DNA of 64,000 bases from Jiella mangrovi. Its GTDB lineage: Bacteria; Pseudomonadota; Alphaproteobacteria; Rhizobiales; Rhizobiaceae. The translations under genes were made by a program, and so were the position numbers. This document shows positions 11,377 through 60,315 of this stretch, piece by piece. The first letter of the stretch is position 1. Each line of letters begins with the position of its first letter. Location: assembly GCF_017815135.1 (NCBI RefSeq), contig NZ_JAGJCF010000002.1:1-64000 (forward strand), read 5' to 3'. The notes under the pieces were generated by a model. The model did not search any database, was not told where the DNA came from, and was given only the letters and a program-made list of their open reading frames with translations.

Positions 11377-11378
11377 GC

Positions 11379-15848: not shown

Positions 15849-15876
15849 CGCTCTCTCCTCTCGGCTGTGGTCATAT

Positions 15877-15906: not shown

Positions 15907-15946
15907 TCCGGATGGGGCGCTCCGCTCGTGGCGCTCTTCACACGCC

Positions 15947-19184: not shown

Positions 19185-19185
19185 G

Positions 19186-35866: not shown

Positions 35867-37441
35867 TTACTTGAGCGATTGCGCCAGCCCGTAGCCGGAG
35901 CCGCCGCCAAGGCCGGGGCCGGGATGGGTCGACGCCCCGATCTGATGAAGACCCTTGATCGCCGTGCCATGGTTCTTCGACGAGGAAAACGGCCGCCAGA
36001 TGAAGAACTGGTCGATGGTCGCGGCCCCGCCATATGGGTCGCCGCCGACGAGGTTCTTGTTCATGGCCTCGAGATCGGCCGGCGAGAAGACCCGGCGTGC
36101 GACGAGATTTTCTTCAAAGTCGTCGATCTGTTCGGCAAGGATCGCCTCCACCCGGTCGGCATAGGCTTCGCGCAGTGCCTCGGTCCAGCGTCCGTCGGCG
36201 GGCGGCGCGATCGCTCCGGCCGCATCGCCCTTGACGAAACGCGGCGTCTCCGGCAGCTGCAGCCACAAGATTGCCGAACCTTGCGGGCAGCGGCTCGGAT
36301 CGAGCCCGTGGGGCTGACCGACGCAGATCGTCGGCACCGCCGGCAAGAGGCCGCGCTCGCATTCGTTCACCGCCCGCGACACCCCGTCGAGGCCGGGCGT
36401 CAGATGGATGAGCGCGACCTTGTCCAGCCCGGCCGTCTTCCAGCGCGGCGGACTTTTCAGGGCGTAGTGGATCTGCATGTTGCCCTTGCCATAGCGATAG
36501 GCCGCGGCGCTCTCGCGTGTCGCCGTATCGACGGCGCTTTCCGGCAGAAGCCGCTGGTAGAGCTGGGTCGGCGTCACCGAGCAGATGACCCCCTTCTTTG
36601 CCTCGATCACGGAGCCGTCGCCAAGCTTCACGCCGGTGGCGCGTCCTTTGACGACGAGCACCTCGGCCACGTCGGCGCCGGTTCGCACTTCGCCGCCATG
36701 TTCGCCGATCAGCCCCTCGAAGGCTTTGACGGCATTGGCGGCGCCGCCTTTGACGATGGGCGCGCCGGCCGCCTCCAGCGCAAAGGCGATGATCCGCGCC
36801 ATCTCGCCTGAAAAGGCACTTTCGGGCCCAAGCCCCGCATGGAGCACCCAGGGCGCTAGGAGCGCCCGTGTCAGATCGGACTGAAAACTTGCCTCCAGCC
36901 AGGCCCGCCCCGGACGCAACGCCTCGCCGAGACGCGCCGCAAGCCCCCTCACCCCCCGCCGACGGGCCTCGGCGAACAGGAGCTTCGACGTCTTGAGGCT
37001 CCACAGCGTACCGCCAAGGAGGCCGAAGAGGAGGCCGGCGTCGCGCTCGACCGTCTCGATCTCGCGCCGATAACGTGCGCCCTCGCCCGGTGCCAGTTCC
37101 TCGAGCTGCGCGATATTGGCGGCGCGATCCGTCGTCAGGACGAGGCTGCGCCCGTCCGGCATGAGGACGGCGGTCGGATGCTGAGTGTTGGCGAAATCAA
37201 GACCATGGCGCGCGAGATCGGCGCCAAGTTCCACAAAGGCCGGCGATGTCACGAAGAGCACGAAGGTCGCCGCCATCACGTCGTGATGATAGCCCGGCAC
37301 GGTGATCTCGTCCGTGCGCATGCAGCCGCCGGCCACCTTCTCGCGCTCCAGAACGACGACCGAATGGCCTTTCTTGGCGAGAAGCGCCGCGCAGGTCAGC
37401 CCGTTGATACCCGATCCGACGACGACGTAATCAGCAGCCAT
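35867..37441 (-). CDS. FAD-dependent oxidoreductase, phytoene-desaturase/PYROXD2-like
   Basis: 524 residues. N-terminal FAD fold VVVGSGINGLTCAALLAKKG ending in VLERE, C-terminal FAD contact near IGASTHPGPGLGGGSGYGLAQ. Clear paralogue of the divergent protein at 37665-39248; both share the NLVGGDxxGG and IGAST motifs. Start at 37441; the frame runs to 37537 but the extension has no FAD motif. Not a carotenoid gene by context (no phytoene synthase). Likely a desaturase or dehydrogenase of a cyclic substrate. Confidence 0.85.
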   Translation of the reverse strand: MAADYVVVGSGINGLTCAALLAKKGHSVVVLEREKVAGGCMRTDEITVPGYHHDVMAATFVLFVTSPAFVELGADLARHGLDFANTQHPTAVLMPDGRSLVLTTDRAANIAQLEELAPGEGARYRREIETVERDAGLLFGLLGGTLWSLKTSKLLFAEARRRGVRGLAARLGEALRPGRAWLEASFQSDLTRALLAPWVLHAGLGPESAFSGEMARIIAFALEAAGAPIVKGGAANAVKAFEGLIGEHGGEVRTGADVAEVLVVKGRATGVKLGDGSVIEAKKGVICSVTPTQLYQRLLPESAVDTATRESAAAYRYGKGNMQIHYALKSPPRWKTAGLDKVALIHLTPGLDGVSRAVNECERGLLPAVPTICVGQPHGLDPSRCPQGSAILWLQLPETPRFVKGDAAGAIAPPADGRWTEALREAYADRVEAILAEQIDDFEENLVARRVFSPADLEAMNKNLVGGDPYGGAATIDQFFIWRPFSSSKNHGTAIKGLHQIGASTHPGPGLGGGSGYGLAQSLK

Positions 37442-37543
37442 GGCGTTGCTCCCCACAAGTCTGAACAGGTGCGAGCGCCCGCCGAAACGGGATGTTCGCG
37501 CGGCACGGCAGCCTGCAGCGGCCGAGATTATGGCCAATCAATG

Positions 37544-37664: not shown

Positions 37665-39248
37665 ATGGCCGAAGAATTCGATGCCGTCTTCGTCGGCGCG
37701 GGGCACAACGCGCTGGCGGCAGCGGTCCATCTGGCCTCCAGGGGCTGGTCGGTCGGCGTGTTCGAGAAGAACGACACGGCCGGCGGCGCCGCCCGCACCG
37801 AGGAAGCGACGCTTCCCGGCTTTCGCCACGATCTTTACGCCACCAATCTCGGCCTTTTCGCCGGCTCCGGGTTTTTTCGCGAACACGGCGAGGCCCTCGG
37901 CAAGCACGGCCTCGCCTTCGTTCCGGCCGAAGACTGCTTCGCCTCGCCGGCGCCCGATGGCAGTTGGTTCGGCGTGTCGAAGGACATCGAAAAGACCGTT
38001 GCGCGGGCCTCCAGCCTGTCGCCCGCGGACGCGGAACGCTGGCGCGAGATGGTCGCGGGCTTCGGCGCCGACGCACCGCATCTCTTCGCCCTCCTCTCGG
38101 CGCCCATGGGCTGGCGTCATCTGGCGTCGCTCGGCTGGAGGGCCTGGCGGGCCAAGGGCACGGCCGGAACGCTGGAGATGGCGCGGTTCCTCGCCTCCTC
38201 CCCGCGCGAATTTCTCGAGCGCAATTTCGAAACGCCGTTGATCCGCGCCGCCCTCGGCGCCTGGGGCATGCATCTCGATTTCGCCCCGGACGTCGCCGGC
38301 GGCGCGCTGTTTCCCTATCTGGAAGGCATGGTCGACCAGACCATGGGCATGGTCATCGGCAAGGGTGGCGCCGATACGATCATCAAGGCGATGGTCGCGC
38401 GGATCGAGGAACTCGGCGGCTCGGTTACCACCGGAGCGGAGGTGACGGAGATCCGCAACCGCTCCGGCAAGTCCGACGGCATCACGTTGGCCGATGGCAG
38501 GCAGATTACGGCAAGGCGCGCGGTCATCGCCGGCGTGACGCCCGGCGCACTGGTCGACCGGCTCCTGTCGGGCTCGCAGGGCAGCGGACAAAGCACCTTC
38601 GATGCCGGGGCGCGCAAGTTCAGGCACGGTCCCGGCACGATGATGGTGCATCTCGCCCTCTCCGGCCTGCCGGACTGGAAAGCCGGCGACGAGCTGAAGC
38701 GCTTCCTCTACGTCCATCTTGCGCCCGATCTCGACGGCATGGCGCGCGCCTATGCCGAGGCGATGGCAGGGCTCCTGCCCCGCCAGCCATTGCTCGTCGT
38801 CGGCCAGCAGACGGCGGTCGATCCGTCCCGCGCGCCCGAGGGACAGCATACGCTGTGGGTGCAGGTGCGCATGGTGCCGGGCACGATCAAAGGCGATGCG
38901 GCCGGAACGATCCAGGCGACGGACTGGTCCGAGGCCGGCGAAGCCTATGCCGACAGGGTGATCGACCTGATCGAGGACTATGCGCCGGGCACGAAGGCGA
39001 AGATCCTCGGCCGATATGTCGAGACGCCGGCCGATCTCGAACGCCGCAACCCCAACCTCGTTGGCGGCGACGGCATCGGCGGCAGCCATCATCTGTCACA
39101 GAATTTCCTGTTCCGGCCGATGCCCGGCTGGGCGCGCTACCGAACGCCGGTCAAGGACCTCTATCTCATCGGCGCCTCGACCTGGCCCGGCGGTGGCCTC
39201 GGCGCGGGCTCGGGCTACATTTTGGCGAAGGACCTCGCGGGACGATGA
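37665..39248 (+). CDS. FAD-dependent oxidoreductase, phytoene-desaturase/PYROXD2-like (paralogue)
   Basis: 527 residues. FAD motif VFVGAGHNALAAAVHLASRG then VFEKND; GGAARTEEATLPGFRHD matches the paralogue's GGCMRTDEITVPGYHHD. The C-terminal end has LIGASTWPGGGLGAGSGYILAKDL. GAGG lies about 10 bases before the ATG. Divergent from its paralogue across 223 bp. The pair may act as a heterodimer or on two successive intermediates; neither is proven. Confidence 0.87.
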   Translation: MAEEFDAVFVGAGHNALAAAVHLASRGWSVGVFEKNDTAGGAARTEEATLPGFRHDLYATNLGLFAGSGFFREHGEALGKHGLAFVPAEDCFASPAPDGSWFGVSKDIEKTVARASSLSPADAERWREMVAGFGADAPHLFALLSAPMGWRHLASLGWRAWRAKGTAGTLEMARFLASSPREFLERNFETPLIRAALGAWGMHLDFAPDVAGGALFPYLEGMVDQTMGMVIGKGGADTIIKAMVARIEELGGSVTTGAEVTEIRNRSGKSDGITLADGRQITARRAVIAGVTPGALVDRLLSGSQGSGQSTFDAGARKFRHGPGTMMVHLALSGLPDWKAGDELKRFLYVHLAPDLDGMARAYAEAMAGLLPRQPLLVVGQQTAVDPSRAPEGQHTLWVQVRMVPGTIKGDAAGTIQATDWSEAGEAYADRVIDLIEDYAPGTKAKILGRYVETPADLERRNPNLVGGDGIGGSHHLSQNFLFRPMPGWARYRTPVKDLYLIGASTWPGGGLGAGSGYILAKDLAGR

Positions 39249-41634: not shown

Positions 41635-42426
41635 ATGGCACAGACACAAGGCTTGAGCGGCTTGGCCGAGATGTTTCTCGGCGGTGCAGTCGAGATCGTC
41701 GATCTTACCGCGACCCTCGGCCCTGACACGCCGCTCCTGAAGCTGCCGCCGGAACTTGCCGTCGACACGCCGAAGATCGAGATTCACAAGATTTCCGAAT
41801 ACGACAAGGCCGGCCCGTTCTGGGCATGGAACTGGCTGAAGGTCGGCGAACATTCCGGCACCCATTTCGATGCGCCGCATCACTGGATCACCGGCAAGGA
41901 CTATTCCGACGGCTACACCGATACGATCCCGGCGCAGAACTTCGTCGCCCCGGTCAATGTCATCGACTGTTCGGCCGAGACTGCTGCCGACAACGACTTC
42001 CTTCTCACCGCAGACGGCGTCAAGGCCTGGGAAGCCGAGCACGGCGAGATCAAGCCGGGCGAGTGGGTGGTCATGCGCACCGACTGGCACAAGCGCAACG
42101 GCTCGGAAGAGACGTTCCTCAACGCCGACGAAACCGGCCCGCATTCGCCGGGACCGTCCGTCGACTGCATCGAATACATCCTGTCCAAGGGTGCGCTCGG
42201 CTGGGGCACGGAGTGCATCGGCACCGATGCCGGCGCCGCCGGCGGCTTCGAGCCGCCCTTCCCGGCCCACAACCTCCTGCACAAGGCCAACAAATACGGC
42301 CTTGCCAGCCTCTGCAACCTCGACAAGCTGCCGCCCAAGGGCGCGGTTCTGATCGCCGCGCCCTTGAAGATCGAGCATGGCACCGGCAGCCCGGTCCGCG
42401 CCCTGGCGATGGTGCAGAAGTCCTGA
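41635..42426 (+). CDS. cyclase-family metal hydrolase, isatin-hydrolase-like
   Basis: 263 residues. The metal motif is complete: His73, His77, Asp79 and His82/83 in GEHSGTHFDAPHHW, as in the manganese-dependent isatin hydrolases and kynurenine formamidases. The C-terminus reads AAPLKIEHGTGSPVRALAM. Start at 41635 with AGGAG upstream; an ATG at 41611 is possible. First gene of an operon with MarR and the IorA/IorB-like pair. If it is an isatin hydrolase, its product isatinate is an aryl 2-oxoacid, which is exactly the substrate class of the enzyme encoded next. Paralogue of 15947-16765. Confidence 0.83.
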   Translation: MAQTQGLSGLAEMFLGGAVEIVDLTATLGPDTPLLKLPPELAVDTPKIEIHKISEYDKAGPFWAWNWLKVGEHSGTHFDAPHHWITGKDYSDGYTDTIPAQNFVAPVNVIDCSAETAADNDFLLTADGVKAWEAEHGEIKPGEWVVMRTDWHKRNGSEETFLNADETGPHSPGPSVDCIEYILSKGALGWGTECIGTDAGAAGGFEPPFPAHNLLHKANKYGLASLCNLDKLPPKGAVLIAAPLKIEHGTGSPVRALAMVQKS

Positions 42427-42469
42427 TGCGGCCAGCGGTGACGGTCGACTGGCCGGCAGACCGGACTTG

Positions 42470-42955
42470 ATGATGGACGACGATACGGCGGAGCTCGCCG
42501 AACGGCCCTACGCACTCGGCGAACTCGGCCTGCAGCAGTTCGCGCCGTATCTGATGAACCGGATCATGGGGCGCTACAACGCCACGCTCCGGGACGACCT
42601 GAAGGCCAACGGCCTTTCGACCGCGCAGATGCGGACCCTGGCGATCCTCGCGGTCGCCGAAGGTCTGACGATCAACGAGATCGCCGTCTACGCGGTGATC
42701 GAGCAGTCGACGATGAGCCGGACGCTGGATGCCATGGAAGCGCAGGACCTTTTGCGCCGCGAGACCGAGGCGAGCGACAACCGGGTCCGGCGCATCTATC
42801 TGACCGAAAAGGGCCGGGCGCTGTTCGACGAGGTCTGGCCGGTGATGCGCTCGGCTTTCCAGACAATGTTCGCCGGCGTCGATGCCGAGGAATACGCAAC
42901 CTTCGTCGCCGTCCTGCAGAAGGTGCTGCGCAACATTCGCAAGCACGACTTTTGA
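42470..42955 (+). CDS. MarR-family transcription regulator
   Basis: 161 residues, winged helix: INEIAVYAVIEQSTMSRTLDAME is the recognition-helix region, followed by the wing SDNRVRRIYLTEKGR. Two ATG codons in a row (42470 and 42473). 43 bp after the cyclase. Probably an aromatic-ligand-responsive repressor of this operon and perhaps of the divergent GlcD-like gene; the CATTTGCAAATG-type sites are candidate operators. Confidence 0.88.
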   Translation: MMDDDTAELAERPYALGELGLQQFAPYLMNRIMGRYNATLRDDLKANGLSTAQMRTLAILAVAEGLTINEIAVYAVIEQSTMSRTLDAMEAQDLLRRETEASDNRVRRIYLTEKGRALFDEVWPVMRSAFQTMFAGVDAEEYATFVAVLQKVLRNIRKHDF

Positions 42956-43017
42956 CGGCGATCCCCAGGAGTAGCCCGGCCCGGTTCGAGGCAACGGCAT
43001 GAAGAAGGAGTGGCGGC

Positions 43018-45180
43018 ATGGCTGAACGTTCATTCGCCAAGGAAGTCGAAAAGCTTCGGCTCGGCGACGGCGCGGAATTCTCCGGCGAAGGCATCCTGGC
43101 CATCACCAAGGCGCTGCTCCAGTGCGGCGTCGGCTATGTCGGCGGCTATCAGGGCGCGCCGATCAGCCATCTGATGGACGTTCTCGCCGACGCGCAGGAC
43201 ATTCTCGGCGAGCTCGGCGTGCATTTCGAGGCCTCCGCCTCCGAGGCGACGGCGACGGCGATGCTCGCCGCCTCGGTGCATTATCCGATCCGCGGGGCAT
43301 GCACCTACAAGTCCACCGTCGGCACCAACGTCGCCTCCGATGCGCTGGCCAACCTCGCCTCCGGCGGCGTCACCGGCGGCGCGCTGATCATCGTCGGCGA
43401 AGACTATGGCGAAGGCTCCTCGATCATGCAGGAGCGCAGCCACGCCTTCGCGATGAAAAGCCAGGTCTGGCTTCTCGATCCGCGCCCGAATCTGCCCTCC
43501 ATCGTCAAGACCGTGGAGGACGGCTTCGAGCTGTCGGAAATATCGAACACGCCGGTTATGCTGCAGGTGCGCATCAAGTCCTGCCATGTCCACGGCAAGT
43601 TCGTGGCCAAGGACAACAAGCGTCCTGCGATGACCGTCGCCGATGCGCTCGACAGCCCGCGCCGCGATCTCGGCCGCATCGTCCTGCCGCCAGCCTCCTT
43701 CAACCACGAGAAGGAAAAGATCGAAAAGCGCTGGCCTGCCGCCGTCGGCTTCATCCGCGAGCGCAAGATCAACGAGATCTTCGGCTCGTCGACAGGCAAG
43801 ATCGGCCTCGTCCTTCAGGGCGGCATGTATAACGGCGTCATCCGGGCGCTGCAGCGGCTCGGCCTTGCCGACATCTACGGCGACACCGAGGTGCCGCTCT
43901 ACGTCCTCAACGCCGTCTATCCGCTGATCGACGTCGAGTTCCTGGAGTTCTGCGAGGGCAAGGATTCGGTGCTTCTCATCGAGGAGGGCCAGCCGAATTA
44001 CATCGAGCAGGCTTTCGGCGCCCTTCTTTACAAGAACGGCGGCACGACGCGGCTTCTCGGCAAGGGCTATCTGCCGGTCGCCGGAGAATATACCGGCGAC
44101 GTCATGCTCGCCGGCATCGGCGACTTCCTGCGCGATCATGCGCCTTCCATGCTGCCCGATCCGGTGCGCGCGCCGAATCGCCCGTCAGAGGAGACAGACA
44201 TCGGGCCGGAGCTCGCCAAGGTCGTGCCGGGCCGCCCGCCCGGCTTTTGTACCGGCTGCCCCGAGCGCCCGATCTTCGCGGCGACGAAACTCGTCGAGGA
44301 AGAGCTCGGCTCCCACCACATCGCCTCGGACATCGGCTGCCATCTCTTCTCGATCATGCCGCCCTTCGAGCTGGGCGCAACGACCATGGGCTACGGTCTC
44401 GGACCCGCCTCGGCCTCGGCCTTCAATTCGCCCGACGCCAAGCGCCGCTCGATCTCCTTCGTCGGCGACGGCGGCTTCTGGCACAACGGCCTGACCTCCT
44501 CCATCGGCAATGCCGTCTTCAACCAGAATGACGGCGTCATCGTCATCGTCGACAACTACTATTCCGCCGCGACCGGCGGACAGGACATCCTCTCCTCGCG
44601 GGCGACCAACAAGTCGAAATCGACCAAGCATCCGATCACCGAGGCGGTGAAGGGGATGGGCGTCAAATGGGTGCGCCATCTCGATCGCACCTATGACGTG
44701 ACGAAGATGCAGGCGACGCTGAAGGAAGCGCTGACCACCGAGGAGAGCGGGCCGAAGGTCATCGTCGCCTCGTCGGAATGCATGCTCAACCGCCAGCGCC
44801 GGGAAAAGCCGATCGCGGCCAAGGCAATCAAGGGCGGCGAGCGGGTGGTGACGCCGCGCTTCGGCGTCGATGAGGATATCTGCACCGGCGATCACGCCTG
44901 CATGCGCCTGTCCGGCTGCCCGTCGCTGTCGGTCAAGACGCTGGACGATCCGCTGCGTGACGACCCGGTCGCCGCGATCGACCACACCTGCGTCGGCTGC
45001 GGCAATTGCGGTGAGGTCGCCGATGCGGCCGTTCTCTGCCCGTCCTTCTACCGGGCCGACAGGGTCCACAATCCAAGCGGTGCCGAGAAGTTTTCGGCCC
45101 GCACCAGCAAGCGTCTCATCGCCTGGCTGCAACGGCGCCGCGAGAGCCGCCAGCTGGTCTTTTCCGAGGCAGCAGCATGA
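43018..45180 (+). CDS. iorA: indolepyruvate:ferredoxin oxidoreductase alpha-like subunit (TPP-dependent 2-oxoacid oxidoreductase)
   Basis: 720 residues. Oxidatively decarboxylates an aryl 2-oxoacid to its acyl-CoA. The TPP motif GDGGFWHNG lies near residue 482, followed by the Asn-containing VIVIVDNYYSAATGG. C-terminal ferredoxin-like part: the second cluster is complete (Cys658, 661, 664, 674), but the first has only three cysteines with stretched spacing (622, 628, 634), so it probably holds no normal [4Fe-4S]. AAGGAG precedes the ATG. Overlaps the partner gene by 4 bp. Context suggests isatinate or another arylglyoxylate rather than indolepyruvate; the family also includes phenylglyoxylate oxidoreductase. 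Confidence 0.88.
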   Translation: MAERSFAKEVEKLRLGDGAEFSGEGILAITKALLQCGVGYVGGYQGAPISHLMDVLADAQDILGELGVHFEASASEATATAMLAASVHYPIRGACTYKSTVGTNVASDALANLASGGVTGGALIIVGEDYGEGSSIMQERSHAFAMKSQVWLLDPRPNLPSIVKTVEDGFELSEISNTPVMLQVRIKSCHVHGKFVAKDNKRPAMTVADALDSPRRDLGRIVLPPASFNHEKEKIEKRWPAAVGFIRERKINEIFGSSTGKIGLVLQGGMYNGVIRALQRLGLADIYGDTEVPLYVLNAVYPLIDVEFLEFCEGKDSVLLIEEGQPNYIEQAFGALLYKNGGTTRLLGKGYLPVAGEYTGDVMLAGIGDFLRDHAPSMLPDPVRAPNRPSEETDIGPELAKVVPGRPPGFCTGCPERPIFAATKLVEEELGSHHIASDIGCHLFSIMPPFELGATTMGYGLGPASASAFNSPDAKRRSISFVGDGGFWHNGLTSSIGNAVFNQNDGVIVIVDNYYSAATGGQDILSSRATNKSKSTKHPITEAVKGMGVKWVRHLDRTYDVTKMQATLKEALTTEESGPKVIVASSECMLNRQRREKPIAAKAIKGGERVVTPRFGVDEDICTGDHACMRLSGCPSLSVKTLDDPLRDDPVAAIDHTCVGCGNCGEVADAAVLCPSFYRADRVHNPSGAEKFSARTSKRLIAWLQRRRESRQLVFSEAAA

Positions 45181-46841
45181 CCGTCGCCCTCGATCACCGC
45201 CCCGGCTCCGAACTTGCCGACCGGATCATCTCGGTCGCCGCCCTCGCCGTCGGCGGTCAGGGCGGCGGCGTCCTGACCAACTGGATCGTCGACGTGGCCG
45301 AGCGCAACGGCTACCGGGCCCAGTCGACATCGGTCGCAGGCGTCGCCCAGCGCACCGGCGCGACGATCTACTATGTCGAGATGTGTCCCGATCGCGGCCG
45401 CCAGCCGGTGTTCTCGCTGTCGCCGTCGAAGGGCGACGTCGACGTCCTCATCGCGGCGGAGCTGATGGAGGCCGGACGGGCGATCCTGCGCGGCTTCGTC
45501 ACGCCCAATCGCACCACCCTGATCGCCTCGGCCCACCGGATCGCCGCCGTGTCGGAGAAGATCGTCCCGGGCGACGGGCGTGCCTCCTCCGCCGAGGTCT
45601 TGGAAGCTGCGCAAAAGGCGGCCAAGGACGTCGTCATCTTCGACATGGAGAAGATGGCCGTCGAGTCCGGTTCGGTCATCTCGTCCAGCCTGTTCGGCGC
45701 ACTCGCCGGCTCCGGCGTGCTGCCGTTCTCGCGCGAAAGTTTCGAGGCGACGATCACCGCGTCCGGCCGTGGCGTGGCGGCCAGCCTCAAGGCCTTTGGC
45801 GCGGCCTATGACGAGGCCGCGCGCGGTCGCGGTGGCGACATCGTCGCCCCGCCTTCGCCTCCCGCCGCCGAGCCCGGGCGCACTGTCGAAGCGCCTTTGC
45901 CATTGGGCGGCACGCCCAAGAGCGAAGACGCCCGATCCAACGGCGCCAAGGCGGACCTCACGCAAGAGCCGCGCGGCGACGAGCGCCTCCTCACGCGCTG
46001 GCGAGCGCTGGAATCGCGCATCGCGACCCTGCCGGAGCCCGTGCGCGAAATGGCACGGCTCGGCCTCAGAAAGGTCGTCGATTATCAGGATCTCGCTTAC
46101 GGCGAAGACTATCTCGACCGCCTCGATCAGGCTGTCGCGAAAGACGACGGCGCGTCGGACTTCGCCTTCAGCCAGACGGCGGCGAAGTATCTCGCCAATG
46201 CCCTCTGCTACGACGACGTCATCCGCGTCGCCGATCTGAAGACACGGTCCGCCCGTTCGGCCCGGGTGCGCCGCGAGATCGGTGTCGATGACGCCGCCGT
46301 CCTCAAGGTGACCGAGTATTTCCACCCGCGCATCGAGGAGGTCTGCGGATCGCTCCCCGCAGGCCTCGGTCGCTGGATCGAAGCCCGGCCGCGGCTCGTC
46401 GAATGGCTCGACAAGCGGATCAGCAAGGGACGGCACATCCGCACCGATTCGATCCCCGGCTTCGGATTGCTCTGGATGCTCGGCGGCATGCGGCGCTGGC
46501 GCCGTTCGCTGCTGCGCCATCAGGTCGAGATGAACCATGTCGACGACTGGTACCGGCTCGCCCTCGACACGGCGCCAAAGGACAGGGCGCTGGCCACCGA
46601 GATCCTGGCCTGCCGGCGGTTGATCAAGGGCTACAGCGACACCCATGTCCGCGGCCTGTCGAAATTCGACCGGGTGCTGTCGGCCTTGCCGATGCTCGCC
46701 GGGCGCGCCGACGCTGCCGACTGGCTGCGCCGCCTGCGCGAAGCGGCGCTGAAAGACGAAAAGGGCACCATGCTGGACGGCGCGCTGAAGACCATCGCCT
46801 CCTTCACCGGGGAGACGGACACCACCGCCGCTCCCCGATGA
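45177..46841 (+). CDS. iorB: indolepyruvate oxidoreductase beta-like subunit with DUF6537 extension
   Basis: 554 residues. The N-terminal gamma domain of pyruvate:ferredoxin oxidoreductases (about 18-215) has VGGQGGGVLTNWIVDVAE and STSVAGVAQRTGATIYYVEM, the CoA/TPP-partner region. A low-complexity linker (about 220-265) leads to a C-terminal DUF6537-like domain of about 280 residues, absent from archaeal IorB. The extension is found in aerobic proteobacterial members, so the electron acceptor may not be ferredoxin. Partner of the preceding gene. Confidence 0.87.
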   Translation: MTVALDHRPGSELADRIISVAALAVGGQGGGVLTNWIVDVAERNGYRAQSTSVAGVAQRTGATIYYVEMCPDRGRQPVFSLSPSKGDVDVLIAAELMEAGRAILRGFVTPNRTTLIASAHRIAAVSEKIVPGDGRASSAEVLEAAQKAAKDVVIFDMEKMAVESGSVISSSLFGALAGSGVLPFSRESFEATITASGRGVAASLKAFGAAYDEAARGRGGDIVAPPSPPAAEPGRTVEAPLPLGGTPKSEDARSNGAKADLTQEPRGDERLLTRWRALESRIATLPEPVREMARLGLRKVVDYQDLAYGEDYLDRLDQAVAKDDGASDFAFSQTAAKYLANALCYDDVIRVADLKTRSARSARVRREIGVDDAAVLKVTEYFHPRIEEVCGSLPAGLGRWIEARPRLVEWLDKRISKGRHIRTDSIPGFGLLWMLGGMRRWRRSLLRHQVEMNHVDDWYRLALDTAPKDRALATEILACRRLIKGYSDTHVRGLSKFDRVLSALPMLAGRADAADWLRRLREAALKDEKGTMLDGALKTIASFTGETDTTAAPR

Positions 46842-47003
46842 GAGACACCGCATCCCGGCAAGTCGTTCGCCGGGGTGACGGCAAGGACATATCCCGCGTT
46901 CAAACGGCTTGCGAAAGAACCACGAAAGCCCTCTGATCATCACCGGCCAAGATCCTGGCCGAGGTTCCACCGTCATCCCAACTGTCCGGACAACGAGGTC
47001 GAC

Positions 47004-47801
47004 ATGCATTCCTTGAAGACATTTCTCCTGGCCTTCGGCCTTGCAGCGGCCGCAACCGGCGCACCGCAGCTGGCAGCTGCCGACACGCTGACGGTCGGCG
47101 CCTATCCGGCCAACCCGCCCTGGGAGGTCAAGACCGAGACCGGCGAATTCGAGGGCTTCGAGGTGGACCTCGTCAAGGAAATTGCCAAGCGGCTCGGCGA
47201 CGACGTCGACTTTCAGGATCTCGGCTTCCAGGCGCTCTTTGCCGCGACGGCCTCCGGCCGCATCGACATGGCCATCTCGACCATTTCGATCACCAATGAT
47301 CGCCTGCAGAACCAGTCCTTCACCCAGGGCTATTACGACAGCGACCTGGCTCTCGTGACCCAGGTCGGCTCCGACGTGAAGTCGCTGGAAGACATGAAGG
47401 GCAAGACCGTCGGCGCGCTTTCCACATCGACCGGCGAGACCTGGGTCAAAGCCAATCAGGAGAAATACGGCTTCGGCGACTTCAAGGGTTACGACACCTT
47501 CCAGAACCTTCTGCTCGACGTACAGAACGGCAGGGTCGACGGCGGCGTCAGCGACATCGGCAGCTTTCAGTTTGCGATGAAGCAGCTGCCTCAGCTCCAG
47601 ATCGCGGCGCGCATCCAGACCGGCGATCGTTTCGCCATCATGCTACCGAAGAACTCGCCGCTGCTTCAGAAGGTCAATGACGCCATCAGCGCCATCAAGA
47701 CCGACGGCACCATGGCGAAGCTGCACGAGAAGTGGCTCGGCGCCGCGCCCGACAAGGGAACGTCGACCGTCGACGTGCTGCCGATCCCGACCGCCCAGTA
47801 A
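47004..47801 (+). CDS. amino-acid-type ABC substrate-binding protein (SBP_bac_3)
   Basis: 265 residues. Signal peptide about 1-24 ending LAAA. Family stretches are VGAYPANPPWEV, FEGFEVDLVKEIAKRLG and GRIDMAISTISITNDR. Start at 47004 with GAGG upstream; the frame to 46875 lacks a signal. Behind the ior genes by 162 bp and before a matching permease. Could bind an amino acid or an aromatic relative such as kynurenine or anthranilate; not resolvable from sequence. Confidence 0.9.
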   Translation: MHSLKTFLLAFGLAAAATGAPQLAAADTLTVGAYPANPPWEVKTETGEFEGFEVDLVKEIAKRLGDDVDFQDLGFQALFAATASGRIDMAISTISITNDRLQNQSFTQGYYDSDLALVTQVGSDVKSLEDMKGKTVGALSTSTGETWVKANQEKYGFGDFKGYDTFQNLLLDVQNGRVDGGVSDIGSFQFAMKQLPQLQIAARIQTGDRFAIMLPKNSPLLQKVNDAISAIKTDGTMAKLHEKWLGAAPDKGTSTVDVLPIPTAQ

Positions 47802-47979
47802 GGCTCCCTTGGTCGGAACACGCCCGTCATCGGACGGCAGCGGCGTCAATCCTGATCCGCAACCGAGCGACGCTGTCATCGTCTCCCGGCCATATCGCTG
47901 ATCGCGTGGGTCGCCGCCATGGCCGGCGGCCCACCCGGCCGAGCTTGGCCACGACAACCCCATCGAAACGCGAGCGGCG

Positions 47980-48648
47980 ATGAATTTTCTCGACACCTTC
48001 TTCAATACCGGTGTGATGCTGCGGGTCTTTCCGATGCTCCTGGCGGGCCTCGAAAACACGCTCTACCTCGCCGTCACGACGCTGATCATCGGCTCGATCG
48101 TCGGGATCGGCCTTTGCATCGTCCGACTCTACGCGCCGGCGCCGCTCAACTATCTGGCCGTCGCCATCATCGATATTTTCCGGGCCCTGCCGATCCTGGT
48201 CGTGCTCGTCCTCGTCTATTACGCCCTGCCATTCCTCGGCATTCGGCTGTCGTCCTTCGTCTCGGCCGTCTTTGCGCTGTCGCTCGTCCTGTCGGCCTTC
48301 ACGGCGGAAGTGTTTCGCTCCGGCGTCCAGGCGATCCCCGACGGACAGACCGAGGCGGCCCGCTCCCTCGGCCTGCATTTTCCGGCGATCCTGTGGAAGG
48401 TCATCCTGCCCCAGGCGCTGCGGATCGCGATTCCGCCCCACACCTCGAACTGCGTCGCGATCGCCAAGGACACCTCGCTAGCCTCGGTCGTGGCGATGCC
48501 CGACCTCCTCAAGCAGGCCACCGACGCACAGGCCCTGACCGCCAATCCCTCGCCCCTGATCGCGGCAGCGCTGCTTTATCTGATCATCCTGTGGCCGGCC
48601 GTCCGACTGGTCTCGATGCTCGAAAAGCGCATGTCCCGCGCCCGCTGA
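47980..48648 (+). CDS. amino-acid-type ABC permease (HisM/GlnP type)
   Basis: 222 residues, about five hydrophobic helices, with the EAA-type loop GQTEAARSLGLHFPAILWKVILPQA. Inner membrane, with the upstream binding protein. No ATPase gene follows before the SDR operon, so a homodimeric permease must borrow an ATP-binding subunit encoded elsewhere. Confidence 0.9.
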   Translation: MNFLDTFFNTGVMLRVFPMLLAGLENTLYLAVTTLIIGSIVGIGLCIVRLYAPAPLNYLAVAIIDIFRALPILVVLVLVYYALPFLGIRLSSFVSAVFALSLVLSAFTAEVFRSGVQAIPDGQTEAARSLGLHFPAILWKVILPQALRIAIPPHTSNCVAIAKDTSLASVVAMPDLLKQATDAQALTANPSPLIAAALLYLIILWPAVRLVSMLEKRMSRAR

Positions 48649-48811
48649 CATCCCCTTTTCCCTCGCCAGCAGACGGCGTCCGCAGTGGCCAGGACGAACT
48701 CCGCATCCGGGCGTCGCCGAGACCCGTTCCGGCTGTTTCCGCGCATCAAGGGCGCCGGACCGCGGAACGCAAAGTTGTGTTATCCTCGGGCCCTGTGCCT
48801 AAGCTCTGGCA

Positions 48812-48849
48812 TTGCTTGCCGAAGAGCGACAAGATAGTTTAAGGTTAAA
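48812..48849 (+). promoter_or_regulatory. promoter with TTTAAGCTTAAA-type operator
   Basis: -35 TTGCTT (48812-48817), 17-bp spacer, -10 TAGTTT (48835-48840). The operator TTTAAGGTTAAA (48838-48849, 11 of 12) starts inside the -10; the left half TAGTTTAAG is identical to the consensus half of the 15.9 kb site. 24 bp before the SDR start, with the MarR gene in the same operon. Confidence 0.55.
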
Positions 48850-48872
48850 AGAAATTACCCGGAAACATCCCG

Positions 48873-49637
48873 ATGGCCTCAGCTTCGTCTCCCCGTCATG
48901 TCCTCGTCACCGGCTCCTCGCGCGGCATCGGCCAGGCGATCGCCGCGGCGTTCGTTGCGGCCGGTGACAAGGTCACTGTTCACGGGCGCAGCCGCGAGAG
49001 CGCCGAGCGCGGCATGCGCGCGATCGGCGCGGCCGGCTTTGTCGTCGCAGACATTACCGACGAAGCCGATCTTATGAAAGCGCTTGGCGAAGCGGCCGAA
49101 GCACGCGGCCCGATCGACGTTCTCGTCAACAATGCCGGCGGTGTCGAGACCGCGCCCCTGTCGCGGCTCGGTGTCGATCAACTGCGCCGGATGATGGCCC
49201 TGAATGTCGAGCCGGTTCTGACCGCCATCCGCGCAGTCGTGCCGGCGATGAAGGCGAAAGGCGGCGGCCGGATCGTCACCGTCGCCTCGACGGCCGGCCT
49301 CAAGGGCTATGGCTATGTCGGTGCCTACACCGCCGCCAAGCACGCCGCCGTCGGCCTGACCCGGGCGCTGGCCCTGGAACTGGCTTCGGCGGGCATCACG
49401 GTGAATGCCGTCTGCCCCGGCTATACCGATACGGACCTGATGGACGGATCGCTGGACAAGCTCGAGGAGAAGACCGGGCGAAGCCGCGAGGAGATCCTGA
49501 AGGATTTCACCAAGGTCAATCCGCTCGGACGGCTGATCCGGCCGGACGAAGTCGCCGACTGCGTGGTCTGGCTCGCCGGCAACGGCGCCGGCGCCATCAC
49601 CGGCCAGGCGATATCGGTTGCGGGAGGCGAGATATGA
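48873..49637 (+). CDS. short-chain dehydrogenase/reductase (classical SDR)
   Basis: 254 residues. NAD(P) motif TGSSRGIG near residue 13, NNAG near 88, catalytic set in STAGLKGYGYVGAYTAAKHA (Ser, Tyr and Lys), and the closing [11 protein letters not shown]. Expected to oxidise a 3-hydroxyacyl-CoA or cyclic alcohol. First gene of the SDR-MarR-hydratase-dehydrogenase-ligase-RidA operon and closely coupled to MarR (4-bp overlap). Confidence 0.88.
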   Translation: MASASSPRHVLVTGSSRGIGQAIAAAFVAAGDKVTVHGRSRESAERGMRAIGAAGFVVADITDEADLMKALGEAAEARGPIDVLVNNAGGVETAPLSRLGVDQLRRMMALNVEPVLTAIRAVVPAMKAKGGGRIVTVASTAGLKGYGYVGAYTAAKHAAVGLTRALALELASAGITVNAVCPGYTDTDLMDGSLDKLEEKTGRSREEILKDFTKVNPLGRLIRPDEVADCVVWLAGNGAGAITGQAISVAGGEI

Positions 49638-50179
49638 CCACCGCTCGGGCGCCCCAACGCGAGCATATCGACGCCGAATCCAAGGTCGACGAAAGCCCCC
49701 AGCATCACCGTGTCGAACTGCGGCTGTGGCTGCGCCTGCTCACCTGCGCGACGCTGATCGAGGCGGAGATCCGCAAACGCCTGCGTGAAAATTTCAACAC
49801 CACCCTGCCGCGTTTCGATCTGATGGCCCAGCTCGAACGCGCCCCCGACGGGGTCCTCCTCGGCGAATTGTCCCGGCGCATGATGGTCTCCAACGGCAAT
49901 GTCACCGGCCTCGTCGAGCGGCTAGTGCAGGAAGGCCTGATCGAGCGCCAGGTCTCCGAGCGCGATCGCCGGGCCGCGATCGTACGCCTGACCGAGCATG
50001 GCCGCTCCGTCTTCGCCAGGATGGCCTCCGCCCACAGCGACTGGGTCGCCGAGCTTCTCGCCGAGCTGCCGGCGCAAGAGCAGAAGGCGCTCTGGTCGCA
50101 GCTGGGCGATCTGAAACATTCCGTCCACACCGCCATTGCGCGCGGACAACGGACGGCCGAGCCAGGACAGGACCGATGA
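49634..50179 (+). CDS. MarR-family transcription regulator
   Basis: 181 residues, winged helix: [23 protein letters not shown] (recognition helix) and the wing [17 protein letters not shown]. Embedded in the catabolic operon with 4-bp overlaps on both sides. It is the best local candidate for the repressor of the TTTAAGCTTAAA sites, since one such site overlaps its own promoter; in MarR systems the ligand is often the aryl-CoA made by the pathway. Confidence 0.88.
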
Positions 50180-51009
50180 AGCGACAGAACGCCATCACCG
50201 CCCCGCTGAAGGATTTCACCCCGGAGCATTTCCGCCTGTCGATAGAGGGCGGCATCGCCACGGTGACCCTGAACCGGCCCGAGAAGAAGAACCCGCTGAC
50301 CTTCGAGAGCTACGCCGAGCTGCGCGACACGTTTCATGCGCTTCGCTTCGAAGACGCGGTGACGGCTGTCGTCATCACCGGGGCCGGCGGCAATTTTTCC
50401 TCCGGCGGCGACGTCTTCGAGATCATCGAGCCGCTGACGAAGATGGAGGCAGCCGAGCTTCACGCCTTCACCACCATGACCGGCGATCTCGTCAAGGAAA
50501 TGCGCGCCTGTCCGCAGCCGATCGTCGCCGCGGTCGAGGGCATTTGCGCCGGCGCCGGCGCGATCGTCGCCATGGCATCCGACATGCGGGTAGGCGCTGC
50601 GGGTGCGAAGGTCGCCTTCCTCTTCAACCGCGTGGGCCTTGCCGGCTGCGACATGGGCGCCTGCGCCATCCTGCCCCGACTGATCGGCCAGGGCCGGGCT
50701 TCCGAACTCCTCTATACCGGCCGCTTCATGAGCGCCGAGGAGGGCGAGCGCTGGGGCTTCTTCAATCGTCTGACCGACAGGGACGGCGCGCTGGACGCTG
50801 CGACGGAATTGGCGAAGGCGCTGACCGAAGGGCCGACCTATGCCAACTCCGTCACCAAGAAGATGCTGCAGATGGAGTGGGCGATGGGCGTCGAGGAGGC
50901 GATCGATGCCGAAGCCATCGCCCAGGCGCTGTGCATGAAGACCGGCGATTTCCGCCGCGCCTTCGAGGCCTTTGCCGCCAAGCAGAAACCCGTCTTCATG
51001 GGGAACTGA
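50176..51009 (+). CDS. enoyl-CoA hydratase/isomerase family protein
   Basis: 277 residues, crotonase fold. Oxyanion-hole stretches are [15 protein letters not shown] and [38 protein letters not shown] is the following conserved loop, with no obvious second glutamate, so a hydratase is not certain (isomerase or ring hydrolase are options). Probably acts on a ring or ring-opened CoA ester in this operon. The next gene starts 4 bp after its stop. Confidence 0.88.
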
Positions 51010-51013
51010 GGCC

Positions 51014-52168
51014 GTGGCGGATACAAGCTTCCTCGCCTGGCCCTTCTTCGAGCCGCGGCACCGCGAACTCGCAGCCAAAGCCGACGCCTGGGCGGCCGAA
51101 CATCTGCCGGCGCTCGTCGATCACCACGATGTCGACGGCAGCTGCCAGCGCCTTGTCGCCGCGATGGGTGAGGCCGGCTTTCTCGCTCACGCTGCGCCCG
51201 AAGACGGCCGCTTCGACGTGCGCAGCCTCTGCATCCTGCGCGAGACCTTCGCGCGCCATGATGGCCTTGCCGATTTCGCCTTCGCCATGCAGGGGCTGGG
51301 CACCGGCGCCCTGACGCTTTCGGGCAGCGACGCGCTGAAAGCGTCCGTCCTGCCCGGTGTGCGGGCCGGAACGACGATCGCCGCCTTCGCCCTGACCGAG
51401 CCCGAGGCCGGATCCGACGTCGCCGAAATCGCGCTCGCGGCCGCGCCCGTCGGCAACGACATGGTGCGTCTCGACGGGGAGAAGACCTGGATTTCCAATG
51501 GCGGCATCGCCGGCCACTACGTGGTCTTCGCCCGGACCGGCGAAGCCGCCGGCGCCCGCGGGCTCAGCGCCTTTTCCGTGCCCGCCGATACGCCCGGTCT
51601 GACCATCGCTGAACGTCTCGATACCATCGCCCCTCATCCGCTGGCCCGCCTGCGGTTCGACGATTGCCGCATCCCGGCCGCCAATCGGATCGGCGAGGCC
51701 GGCGCCGGCTTCAAGATCGCCATGGCGACCCTCGACGTCTTTCGCTCGACGGTCGGCGCGGCAGCGCTCGGCTTTGCCCGCCGGGCCCTCGACGTCTCGA
51801 TGGAGCGGACCCGCGGCCGCAAGCTCTTCGGCGCGCCGCTGGCCGACATGCAGCTGACCCAGACCGCCCTCGCCGACATGGCGACGGCCATCGATACTTC
51901 GGCCCTGCTCGTCTATCGGGCCGCCTGGACGCGGGATGCCGGCGCGCCGCGCATCACCCGCGAGGCGGCCATGGCCAAGCTGGTCGCCACCGAAAGCGCG
52001 CAAAAGGTCATCGATGCCGCCGTTCAGCTGCATGGCGGCGAAGGCGTGCGCTCGGGTTCGGTGCCCGAAACCCTCTACCGCGAGATCCGCGCCCTTCGCA
52101 TCTACGAGGGCGCGAGCGAAGTCCAGAAGCTCATCATCGCCCGCCAACTCCTCTCGCAGCCCGCTTAA
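51014..52168 (+). CDS. acyl-CoA dehydrogenase
   Basis: 384 residues from a GTG start. FAD motifs [12 protein letters not shown] and [18 protein letters not shown]; the catalytic base Glu lies in [20 protein letters not shown], the standard C-terminal position. Introduces a 2,3 double bond in an acyl- or alicyclic acyl-CoA, passing electrons to ETF (not encoded here). Fourth gene of the 48.9 kb operon. Confidence 0.9.
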
Positions 52169-52179
52169 GGAGCGCGCCC

Positions 52180-53826
52180 ATGCCCGGCACGTCCCATGTC
52201 GACACCTTCGTTCTCGACAATCTGCCGCCGGCGCATCTCCTGCCGGACTTCGTCAATCTCGACCGGCTGGCCTATCCCGAGCATCTGAACGCCACGGTCG
52301 AGCTGGTCGACCGGCACGTCGCCGAGGGCCGCGGCGACAGGCCGGCCCTGCTCGCCCCCGGCGGCGTCCGATGGACCTATGCCGATCTCGCCCGGATGAT
52401 CGATCGGATGGCCAACGTCCTCACCGGGAAGCTCGGCCTCGTCTCGGGCAACCGGGTCCTGCTGCGCTCGGCCAACAACCCGACGAAGGTCGCGCTCTAC
52501 ATGGCGGTCATCAAGGCGGGCGGCATCGTCGTCGCCACCATGCCGCTGCTGAGATCGCGCGAACTGGTGCAGATCCTCGACAAGGCGAAGATCTCTCTGG
52601 CGCTCTGCGACGCGACGCTCGCCGCCGAGATGGAAAAGGCCGCGGCCGGCGCCGCCGAAAAGCCGCAGGTCGTGACCTGGGCGGGCACCGCCGGAGGCGA
52701 GCTCGGCGCCTTGCTGGACGGCGTGACCGATCGGTTCGCGGCCGTCCCGACACGGGCGGACGATCCCTGTCTCCTCGGCTTCACCTCCGGCACGACCGGC
52801 CTGCCCAAGGCGACGATCCACTATCACCGCGATCTTCTGATCATCTGCGACTGCTATGCCAGGGACGTGCTCAAGGCGGATGCCGACGACGTCTTCATCG
52901 GCTCGCCGCCGCTCGCCTTCACCTTCGGCCTTGGCGGGCTCGTTCTGTTCCCGTTCAGGGTCGGAGCCTCGGCCGTGCTCCTCGAAAAGGCCGGCCCGCC
53001 GGATCTCGCCAAGGCGATCGGCGATTATGGCGCGACGATCTCCTTCACGGCCCCGACGGCCTATCGCGCGATTCTGGCGAAGGCCGAGGACTACGACCTT
53101 TCGTCCCTGAAGAAGTGCGTCTCGGCTGGCGAGACCCTGCCCAAACCCACCTTCGACGCCTGGCTGGAGGCGACCGGCATTAAGCTGATGGACGGCATCG
53201 GCGCGACCGAGATGCTGCATATCTTCATCGCCGCCAGCGAAGACGAGATCCGCCCCGGCGCGACCGGCAGGCCCGTGCCCGGCTACGAGGCGAAGGTCAT
53301 TGATGGCGAAGGCCGGGAAGTGCCGCGCGGCACGCCCGGCAGGCTCGCCGTGCGCGGCCCGATCGGCTGCCGCTATCTCTCCGACGAGCGCCAGAGCGCC
53401 TATGTCGAGAAGGGCTGGAACGTCACCGGCGACACCTATGTCGAGGACGAGGACGGCTATTTCTGGTTTCAGGCCCGCAATGACGACATGATCGTCTCCT
53501 CCGGCTACAACATCGCCGGCCCGGAGGTGGAGGCGGCCCTGTTCGCCCATCCCGCCGTCCTGGAGACCGGCGTCGTCGGCGCGCCGGACGCCGAGCGCGG
53601 GCGGATCGTCAAGGCCTATGTCGTGCTTGCAGGCGGCTTCGAAGCGTCTGACGAGCTGGCCAAGGACCTGCAGGATCATGTGAAGCGTGAGCTTGCGCCC
53701 TATAAATATCCCCGTTCGATCGTCTTCGTGGACGCCCTTCCGAAAACCGAATCCGGGAAGCTGCAGCGCTTTGCCCTGCGCCAGCAGGCCGAGCTCGAAC
53801 ACGAAATCCAAGGAGAGACCGCGTGA
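52180..53826 (+). CDS. benzoate/2-aminobenzoate-CoA ligase-like enzyme
   Basis: 548 residues. AMP-binding motifs FTSGTTGLPKATIHYHRD, GATEML and the lysine in TESGKLQRF. The N-terminus (HLNATVELVDRHVAEGRGDRPAL) and the overall form are of the benzoate-CoA ligase branch, in which 2-aminobenzoate-CoA ligase AbmG of aerobic Azoarcus lies. AAGGAG before the ATG. With the monooxygenase-reductase at 13.5 kb and RidA next door it makes 2-aminobenzoate the likeliest acid, although other benzoates are possible. Confidence 0.85.
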   Translation: MPGTSHVDTFVLDNLPPAHLLPDFVNLDRLAYPEHLNATVELVDRHVAEGRGDRPALLAPGGVRWTYADLARMIDRMANVLTGKLGLVSGNRVLLRSANNPTKVALYMAVIKAGGIVVATMPLLRSRELVQILDKAKISLALCDATLAAEMEKAAAGAAEKPQVVTWAGTAGGELGALLDGVTDRFAAVPTRADDPCLLGFTSGTTGLPKATIHYHRDLLIICDCYARDVLKADADDVFIGSPPLAFTFGLGGLVLFPFRVGASAVLLEKAGPPDLAKAIGDYGATISFTAPTAYRAILAKAEDYDLSSLKKCVSAGETLPKPTFDAWLEATGIKLMDGIGATEMLHIFIAASEDEIRPGATGRPVPGYEAKVIDGEGREVPRGTPGRLAVRGPIGCRYLSDERQSAYVEKGWNVTGDTYVEDEDGYFWFQARNDDMIVSSGYNIAGPEVEAALFAHPAVLETGVVGAPDAERGRIVKAYVVLAGGFEASDELAKDLQDHVKRELAPYKYPRSIVFVDALPKTESGKLQRFALRQQAELEHEIQGETA

Positions 53827-54281
53827 CTGTGACCAAGCCTGCCGACGCAATGGATGGCACCCCCGGAGACACCAAAGCCGTTGAGGGAGGACTGACCGTC
53901 CTGCAGCCGTCCGGGTGGAAGCGGCCGCGTGGCTATGCCAACGGCATGATGGGTCGTGGCCGCCTTGTTCTGACCGGCGGACTGATCGGCTGGGACGAGA
54001 CCGAGACTTTCGCCGAGGGCTTCATCCCGCAGGTCGAGCAGACCCTGAAGAACGTCCTCGCCGTCGTCGCCGAGGCTGGCGGTCGCCCCGAACACATCGC
54101 CCGGCTGACCTGGTACGTCAAAAGCATCCCGACCTACCGGGCCTCGCTCTCCGAACTCGGCACCGTCTACTCCCGCACCTTCGGGCGCCACTATCCGGCG
54201 ATGGCCCTCGTCCAGGTATCCGACCTCGTCGAACCCGAGGCGCTGGTCGAGATCGAGGCGACGGCAATCCTTCCGGATTGA
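53823..54281 (+). CDS. RidA family protein (enamine/imine deaminase type)
   Basis: 152 residues. Conserved core from about residue 27; the strand LVLTGGLIGWDETET replaces the usual GQ segment, and ALVQVSDLVEPEALVEIEATA is the typical end. RidA-type proteins hydrolyse enamine/imine intermediates, releasing ammonia. In a 2-aminobenzoyl-CoA route such a step removes the ring amino group after reduction. The GTG start overlaps the ligase stop (GTGA), showing tight coupling. Confidence 0.85.
   Translation: MTVTKPADAMDGTPGDTKAVEGGLTVLQPSGWKRPRGYANGMMGRGRLVLTGGLIGWDETETFAEGFIPQVEQTLKNVLAVVAEAGGRPEHIARLTWYVKSIPTYRASLSELGTVYSRTFGRHYPAMALVQVSDLVEPEALVEIEATAILPD

Positions 54282-59331: not shown

Positions 59332-59335
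<4 letters not shown>
58442..59335 (+). CDS. ABC transporter permease (DppC type, second system)
   Basis: 297 residues; LGADDQGRNLLTAMAYGLRTS is the OppC-type signature and EREQEYVAAARVTGRTNTA the coupling helix region. Starts at 58442 by ATGA overlap with the first permease; the longer frame from 57677 is shadow. Confidence 0.9.

Positions 59336-60311
<976 letters not shown>

Positions 60312-60315
<4 letters not shown>

Follow-up and report, generated by a model that had tools for sequence, protein, structure and literature searches.

The DNA analysed here (the window) comprises 64,000 nucleotides of contig NZ_JAGJCF010000002.1 of Jiella mangrovi, in which an isatin hydrolase gene is followed on the same strand by the two genes of a 2-oxoacid:ferredoxin oxidoreductase, IorAB. 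Judged from sequence, IorAB is probably an isatinate:ferredoxin oxidoreductase that produces 2-aminobenzoyl-CoA. This reading is favoured because IorAB is present in every genome of an order-level sample that carries an isatin hydrolase, because it occurs nearly always with a relative of 2-aminobenzoyl-CoA monooxygenase/reductase (ABMR), and because IorAB-ABMR gene rows free of a CoA ligase exist. In the proposed pathway, the isatin hydrolase (41635-42426) would open isatin to isatinate, which IorAB (43018-46841), using thiamine pyrophosphate (TPP), CoA, and ferredoxin, would convert to 2-aminobenzoyl-CoA and CO2 at no ATP cost, reducing the ferredoxin. ABMR (13461-15848) would oxygenate and reduce the ring of 2-aminobenzoyl-CoA, and an anthranilate-CoA (abm-type) gene set (48873-54281) would complete the breakdown by beta-oxidation-like steps. 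If this is true, iadAB (the name of iorAB as markers of auxin-degrading loci) would gain a reaction and the step after isatin hydrolysis an enzyme, the ATP cost of an AMP-forming CoA ligase would be avoided, and the free anthranilate found in auxin degraders might arise by overflow or as a by-product instead of being the main intermediate. A new reaction would also be predicted for the IOR family.

Isatin hydrolase, IorAB, and 2-aminobenzoyl-CoA genes

The sequence shows directly which families the enzymes belong to, their key motifs, and the gene row with its conserved linkage. The genes central to the proposal are the following.

13461-15848, minus strand: ABMR, 2-aminobenzoyl-CoA monooxygenase/reductase relative, with a FAD monooxygenase half and an old-yellow-enzyme half
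15947-16765, minus strand: IHA-type isatin hydrolase with GLQC motif, the second of the window, positioned like IadI; 387 bits to PDB 5nnb and 5nna (isatin hydrolase A)
41635-42426, plus strand: predicted IHB-type isatin hydrolase with GLAS motif, 263 aa, which would convert isatin to isatinate (2-aminophenylglyoxylate)
42470-42955, plus strand: regulator of the MarR family with an uncertain start codon; 3cjn is its nearest solved structure
43018-45180, plus strand: IorA/IadA, 720 aa, the TPP- and Fe-S-binding subunit of a 2-oxoacid:ferredoxin oxidoreductase proposed to act on isatinate
45177-46841, plus strand: IorB/IadB, POR gamma-type domain and DUF6537, 554 aa; NF006179 703 bits (cut-off 348)
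48873-49637, plus strand: short-chain dehydrogenase/reductase (SDR) of the abm-type set, a set also found beside ABMR in other genomes
49634-50179, plus strand: second MarR regulator, abm-type set
50176-51009, plus strand: enoyl-CoA hydratase, PRK08258, 463 bits (cut-off 330)
50972-52168, plus strand: acyl-CoA dehydrogenase, start codon uncertain
52219-53826, plus strand: benzoate/2-aminobenzoate-type CoA ligase; TIGR02262 364.7 bits, slightly below the cut-off of 375.25
53823-54281, plus strand: RidA-family protein

The protein encoded at 41635-42426, whose mechanical open reading frame begins farther upstream, at 41443, scores 456.5 bits against isatin hydrolase B of Labrenzia (PDB 4j0n) over residues 4-262. 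Its metal motif, HSGTHFD, begins at residue 73, the GLAS motif lies at A224/S225, and in the pocket W65, W84, and F209 are retained and position 63 is W where F is expected; residue roles and the motif definition follow PMC6117287. The second protein (15947-16765) also has a GLAS near its N-terminus, the signature counted being GLQC. By these sequence features (HxGTHxD metal motif, GLAS or GLQC, aromatic pocket), the window proteins are assigned to the isatin hydrolases, and counterparts of both Labrenzia types, A and B, are encoded. Unlike the Labrenzia proteins, which were compared as proteins alone, those of the window are tied to IorAB and ABMR genes. A kynurenine formamidase identity for the 41635-42426 protein was rejected (TIGR03035 only 29 bits, cut-off 223; GLAS motif present).

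From 41635 to 54281 the genes form one same-strand row with gaps of 224 bp at most; the isatin hydrolase and MarR genes are 43 bp apart, MarR and IorA 62 bp, and IorA and IorB overlap by 4 bp. The pairing of an isatin hydrolase with a TPP-type oxidoreductase in one operon, proposed in the sequence-only reading, was therefore borne out. IorAB is an intact two-subunit enzyme in which the C-terminal TPP domain (PF02775) of IorA, with GDG at residue 483, the CxxCxxC at 658, the POR gamma-type domain of IorB, and a match to PF01558 (POR) place the pair in the IOR/POR superfamily, of which the GDG and Fe-S ligand motifs are hallmarks. Against TIGR03336, the equivalog model for indolepyruvate:ferredoxin oxidoreductase, IorA scores 268.4 bits with a cut-off of 650.9, so the model does not name it an indolepyruvate enzyme. 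The reaction type proposed is that of phenylglyoxylate:acceptor oxidoreductase (Pad), which converts an aryl-2-oxoacid to an aryl-CoA; Pad differs in subunit make-up and is likened here by reaction type, not by sequence. No solved structure matched IorA by sequence at E 0.001, and its predicted structure was poor (mean predicted local distance difference test score, pLDDT, 62.8; TPP and Fe-S regions mostly below 50). In the first Fe-S cluster motif of IorA (residues 622-634), D625 was invariant in 14 of 14 aligned IorA sequences, at a position where cysteine is the usual residue.

ABMR contains PF01494 and PF00724, and both halves match PDB structures. Aligned along its full length, it reaches 1053.7 bits against PRK08255, slightly below the cut-off of 1078, and the fusion of a FAD monooxygenase with an old-yellow-enzyme domain supports, at the level of sequence, its placement in the ABMR family. 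It is the single ABMR match in its own genome at E up to 1e-120. The abm-type label for 48873-54281 was given because this six-gene set adjoins ABMR in many other genomes. Together, these families agree with the earlier expectation that the window encodes candidate enzymes for the use of 2-aminobenzoyl-CoA.

The aerobic degradation of 2-aminobenzoyl-CoA in Azoarcus evansii begins with a CoA ligase (PMC4539516). ABMR, beta-oxidation-type genes, and a CoA ligase are common to that pathway and the window, which differs by a proposed additional ATP-free entry through isatinate and IorAB. A 2-aminobenzoyl-CoA cluster is also described as serving anthranilate breakdown during indole degradation (PMC6221969). 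In the anaerobic iaa auxin pathway of Aromatoleum, likened here by description only, 2-aminobenzoyl-CoA is reported to be reached as well, with a different gene set.

Linkage across genomes and gene neighbourhoods

Co-occurrence was determined in an order sample of 199 genomes, using cut-offs of E<=1e-50 for IorA, E<=1e-40 for isatin hydrolase, and E<=1e-120 for ABMR, and in an overlapping phylum sample of 299 genomes. Fisher values are given without correction for multiple testing or shared ancestry. In the order sample, IorA was found in 37 genomes, isatin hydrolase in 22, and ABMR in 61; all 22 isatin-hydrolase genomes had IorA (Fisher 9e-20). ABMR was present in 36 of the 37 IorA genomes (G024 being without it) versus 25/162 genomes without IorA, an odds ratio of 197. 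As a control for aromatic degraders in general, the phenylacetyl-CoA oxygenase PaaA gave 19/37 genomes with IorA versus 28/162 without (odds ratio 5). The phylum sample gave IorA in 22 genomes, isatin hydrolase in 17, and ABMR in 42, with IorA in 16 of the 17 isatin-hydrolase genomes and ABMR in 20 of the 22 IorA genomes (G321 and G383 without). The isatin-hydrolase-like protein of the genome lacking IorA (G414) has GLSS in place of GLAS or GLQC. Outside the order, seven genomes of the phylum sample had IorA, five of them with ABMR and three, G402 and G471 included, with isatin hydrolase.

Matches to IadD at E<=1e-60 were obtained in 8/199 genomes; seven (67-100% identity) were taken as orthologs and one (G082, 33%) was excluded. 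All seven fall among the 22 genomes with isatin hydrolase, the other 15 having IorAB without IadD, which indicates that the tie of IorAB to isatin hydrolase is not merely that of the auxin operon. No IadD ortholog was found in the window's own genome, one of these 15, where the best matches were partial with 27-29% identity and IadE had no separate search, and its identification as an ordinary iad-type auxin degrader was rejected on this basis.

Gene neighbourhoods were compared in 80 named IorA loci, the best 80 of at least 590 relatives, among which close relatives are over-represented; they cover up to 10 kb on each side, and 63 of them reach the full 10 kb at both ends. An isatin hydrolase relative (>=40% identity) was located within the stretch in 55 of them, a pairing beyond chance, and CrtO-like oxidoreductases were found in 39, ABMR in 22, and IadD at >=60% identity in 9. 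A ligase match was absent from 14 of the 22 ABMR-bearing loci and present in 8 (E<=1e-3), or 16 and 6 with stricter limits.

Two loci of another class than the window (L087 in G471, L088 in G402) carry on one strand IorA, IorB, a thioesterase, ABMR, a cupin dioxygenase, a fumarylacetoacetate hydrolase (FAH)-family hydrolase, and a carbon-nitrogen (CN) hydrolase. A search of 11 loci with four ligase queries at E<=1e-3 found no CoA ligase in either (20 kb each), nor in L089, L091, L092, L093, or L104, and gave ligase-domain matches in L048, L090, L097, and L106. L087 also contains a gene of the Asp/Glu-racemase/arylmalonate-decarboxylase type; the frame tested at that place in L088 is a MarR. 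The cassette is repeated on a plasmid of Caballeronia sp. SBC1 (L188), together with a racemase-type gene, MarR, and a GLQC (IHA-type) isatin hydrolase, and in that 34 kb stretch a ligase was neither annotated nor found. The cupin and CN hydrolase of L188 score under every curated cut-off that would name a substrate.

For an ortho-amino ring, gentisate-type cleavage in these cassettes would give an amide, FAH-type hydrolysis would yield pyruvate and maleamate, the CN hydrolase would free ammonia, and the racemase-type isomerase would convert maleate to fumarate. With a salicylate-derived ring, an amidase would be unnecessary. ABMR is reported to yield 5-hydroxyanthraniloyl-CoA under limiting NADH (PMC3534580).

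Eight of 50 IorA plasmid records were surveyed. An Azospirillum plasmid carries on one strand IorAB, iadCDE, a ligase (61% identical to the window's IadF-like ligase), an SDR, ABMR, a second SDR, an enoyl-CoA hydratase, and an acyl-CoA dehydrogenase. A Tsukamurella plasmid (L250, Actinomycetota) holds IorAB, a cyclase with the signature GLTS (neither GLAS nor GLQC), two FAD oxidoreductases (the first Crt-like, the other FMO-like), ABMR, a ligase, and further thioesterase, cupin, FAH, and nitrilase-type genes. Judging by this plasmid, whose IorA is about 65% identical to that of the window, sequence similarity suggests that the cyclase/IorAB/ABMR set moved between phyla. Ruegeria pomeroyi and Shinella have IorAB-thioesterase and divergent cupin, FAH, and CN hydrolase genes, with no ABMR within the stretch. 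Near an IS1071 transposase of Variovorax sp. PBS-H4, IorA stands alone with part of IorB, and one of the eight records lacks annotation.

Alternative readings and the iad pathway

The sequence-only reading knew of no described pathway joining these steps. The pairing itself is known, iadA and iadB (iorAB) being markers of auxin-degrading iad loci (PMC9613470); such loci occur in Variovorax, Bradyrhizobium, and Achromobacter. Orthologs of both markers are present in the window, and in related loci IorAB adjoins iadCDE; IorA relatives beside iadCDE-type genes (L032, L033, L065, L067, L251) are 70-72% identical to IorA of the window. An iad locus is also expected to carry the IadD/IadE oxygenase, of which IadD has no ortholog in the genome studied here. 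The iad pathway is described as passing through isatin and isatinic acid and ending at anthranilate, with no reaction given for iadAB. The absence of a described reaction held up to the extent that, in the open-licence full-text literature (most subscription papers lie outside this scope), no paper linked isatinate directly to 2-aminobenzoyl-CoA and none assigned a reaction to iadAB.

Several observations weigh against the proposed role of IorAB. Isatin hydrolase is missing from 15 of the 37 IorA genomes of the order sample, some of which have genes of tripartite ATP-independent periplasmic (TRAP) transporters (14 of the 15 have ABMR); in G402 and G471 it lies on a different contig from the IorAB-ABMR row; and among the eight plasmid loci only three (Caballeronia, Azospirillum, Tsukamurella) have ABMR and five an isatin hydrolase relative. 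The Tsukamurella ligase, 50% identical to the abm-type ligase, adjoins ABMR, and in the window one CoA ligase is retained in the row (52219-53826) and a second adjoins ABMR (11379-13163). PRK08255 carries the name of salicylyl-CoA 5-hydroxylase. Enzymes of the IOR family are, moreover, often oxygen-sensitive.

In an unlikely alternative, isatinate would break down to free anthranilate, either by itself or through an unlinked enzyme, to be activated by one of the two ligases, and IorAB would act on another 2-oxoacid. Anthranilate is detected in iad organisms, and the published account of Variovorax, which also counts against the proposed role of IorAB, states that complementation with iadC-K2 without iadAB fully restored anthranilate (PMC12633357). 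The same account reports that C8H7NO3 and C7H7NO accumulate with iadC-K2 in the deletion background. By gene numbers, the deletion (genes 77-53) spans iadA (gene 72) and presumably iadB. Isatinate has the formula C8H7NO3, and a build-up of this compound fits a missing consumer, in favour of the proposed role of IorAB; the authors of PMC12633357 interpret it as an intermediate toward anthranilate. Growth of Pseudomonas sp. LY1 on indole-3-acetic acid (IAA) is reported to stop when genes named iadA and iadB are disrupted (PMC8383072); that paper makes no mention of indolepyruvate oxidoreductase, the names there may or may not denote IorAB, and the result was not used as evidence. The ligase counts are likewise compatible with free anthranilate: among ABMR neighbourhoods with full flanks, a ligase is present in 18/20 IorA-negative and 15/22 IorA-positive ones, being absent from 2/20 and 7/22 (p 0.13), a difference that is not significant and was counted against the IorAB proposal; over all 60 ABMR stretches it is missing in 12/35 IorA-positive versus 4/25 IorA-negative (p 0.15). 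Two narrower, post hoc cuts gave significant differences, namely a missing ligase in 7/17 isatin-hydrolase genomes versus 2/27 (p 0.017) and in 5/6 with ABMR within 20 kb of IorA versus 4/38 (p 0.0006). These cuts used the 44 of 60 stretches that extend at least about 7.6 kb to each side of ABMR; the 16 shorter ones dropped include G069, G070, G171, and G183, isatin-hydrolase genomes with the ligase absent from the short stretch. Free anthranilate as the route leaves unexplained both the presence of IorAB in 22/22 isatin-hydrolase genomes of the order and the ligase-free IorAB-ABMR rows.

The annotation and family names, and the described membership of IorAB in auxin-degrading loci, would suit an indolepyruvate or arylpyruvate oxidoreductase that converts indolepyruvate to indoleacetyl-CoA and feeds the auxin pathway. 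This is very unlikely in view of the low TIGR03336 score, the 15/22 isatin-hydrolase genomes that keep IorAB without IadD, the odds ratio for ABMR, and a separate IOR-like frame elsewhere in the J. mangrovi genome (fused, 1227 codons, 28% identity to IorA). It would be highly improbable that the substrate is a related ortho-substituted phenylglyoxylate, for example the 2-hydroxy compound leading to salicylyl-CoA, with the tie to isatin hydrolase being secondary. The name of PRK08255 and the IorAB loci with TRAP transporters and no isatin hydrolase speak for such a substrate; the ring-cleavage genes followed by a CN hydrolase (L087, L088, L188), with an Asp/Glu-racemase/arylmalonate-decarboxylase-type enzyme in L087 and L188, speak against it, as this cassette would make more sense for an amino-substituted ring, which yields an amide, than for a hydroxy-substituted one. 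As an observation apart, L051, L052, L039, and L047 combine IorAB with TRAP transporter genes without isatin hydrolase in the stretch (with MarR in L051 and L052), and the IorAB substrate there may be an imported aryl-2-oxoacid.

The conversion of isatinate to 2-aminobenzoyl-CoA by IorAB, as first put forward, has gained strong indirect support from co-occurrence and the ligase-free rows; the isatinate specificity, product, and electron carrier of IorAB and the joint action of ABMR and the abm-type set in the window are inferred. The bypass of free anthranilate, also put forward then, is likely partial in J. mangrovi, given the abm-type ligase kept at 52219-53826 and the anthranilate reported for Variovorax without iadAB (PMC12633357).

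Upper routes to isatin and other genes of the window

The remaining genes considered are listed below.

9268-11376, minus strand: FadJ-like enoyl-CoA hydratase/3-hydroxyacyl-CoA dehydrogenase
11379-13163, minus strand: acyl-CoA ligase, PRK06155, 778 bits (cut-off 722), start codon uncertain
13012-13464, minus strand: 4HBT-type thioesterase (Pfam), overlapping ABMR
16762-18228, minus strand: SDR with ChsH2-type zinc ribbon and OB fold, in an IadH-like place, start codon uncertain
18000-19184, minus strand: thiolase (PF22691), in an IadG-like place
19186-20910, minus strand: acyl-CoA ligase, in an IadF-like place
35867-37537, minus strand: Crt1, phytoene-desaturase/CrtO-family FAD oxidoreductase, partner of the IHB-type isatin hydrolase
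37665-39248, plus strand: Crt2, second FAD oxidoreductase of the Crt pair
47004-47801, plus strand: family 3 ATP-binding cassette (ABC) solute-binding protein
47980-48648, plus strand: amino-acid-type ABC permease

The collected loci yielded 85 distinct isatin-hydrolase-like sequences, 68 with GLAS, 15 with GLQC, and 2 with neither. A Crt-type oxidoreductase (>=50% identity) was located within 5 kb in 52/68 GLAS versus 0/15 GLQC sequences, and a thiolase (>=55% identity) in 0/68 versus 9/15; at L102 and L103, both GLQC loci, the Crt relative is 47% identical, under the 50% limit. By these counts, the Crt pair is the usual neighbour of the B type and the auxin-type set that of the A type; the window has both. 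The genes at 15947-20910 were assigned putative IadF-G-H-I-like steps by similarity and position, in comparison with the description in PMC12633357. Isatin would seem to be fed by two upper routes in the window, the iadFGHI-like set with IHA (15947-20910) and the CrtO-like pair tied to IHB, the Crt pair being perhaps an upper route to isatin. The chances are about even that isatinate is a shared node at which the iad/IHA and CrtO-pair/IHB routes meet at one CoA-acylating isatinate:ferredoxin oxidoreductase (IadAB) able to replace the ATP-using anthranilate-CoA ligase, on plasmids and chromosomes of Pseudomonadota and Actinomycetota.

The minus-strand cluster at 9268-20910 looks like iadFGHI joined to ABMR. 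Relatives of the thiolase at 18000-19184, 67-70% identical, occur in several iad loci, and relatives of the thioesterase (32-34% identity) lie between IorB and ABMR in L087 and L088. The MarR protein at 42470-42955 is more distant from 3cdh and 7kfo, the structures of IadR, than from 3cjn. Binding of IAA by 3cdh and 7kfo is taken from the cited literature, and a role of this MarR as an auxin sensor was considered less likely, the nearest structure being 3cjn.

Between 33308 and 35857 are genes for an HpaI-type aldolase, an SfnG/RutA-type flavin monooxygenase, and a RutF/HpaC-type flavin reductase; relatives of the aldolase and monooxygenase stand near isatin hydrolase in L090, L104, L105, and L118. 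Catechol 2,3-dioxygenase-like (299 bits, below the cut-off of 320) and 4-oxalomesaconate tautomerase genes at 6360-9134 would belong to a further ring-cleavage route. The region 54740-62686 holds a family 5 ABC solute-binding protein, peptide-type transporter genes, and two M20 peptidase-family genes, which might import and cleave an amide conjugate.

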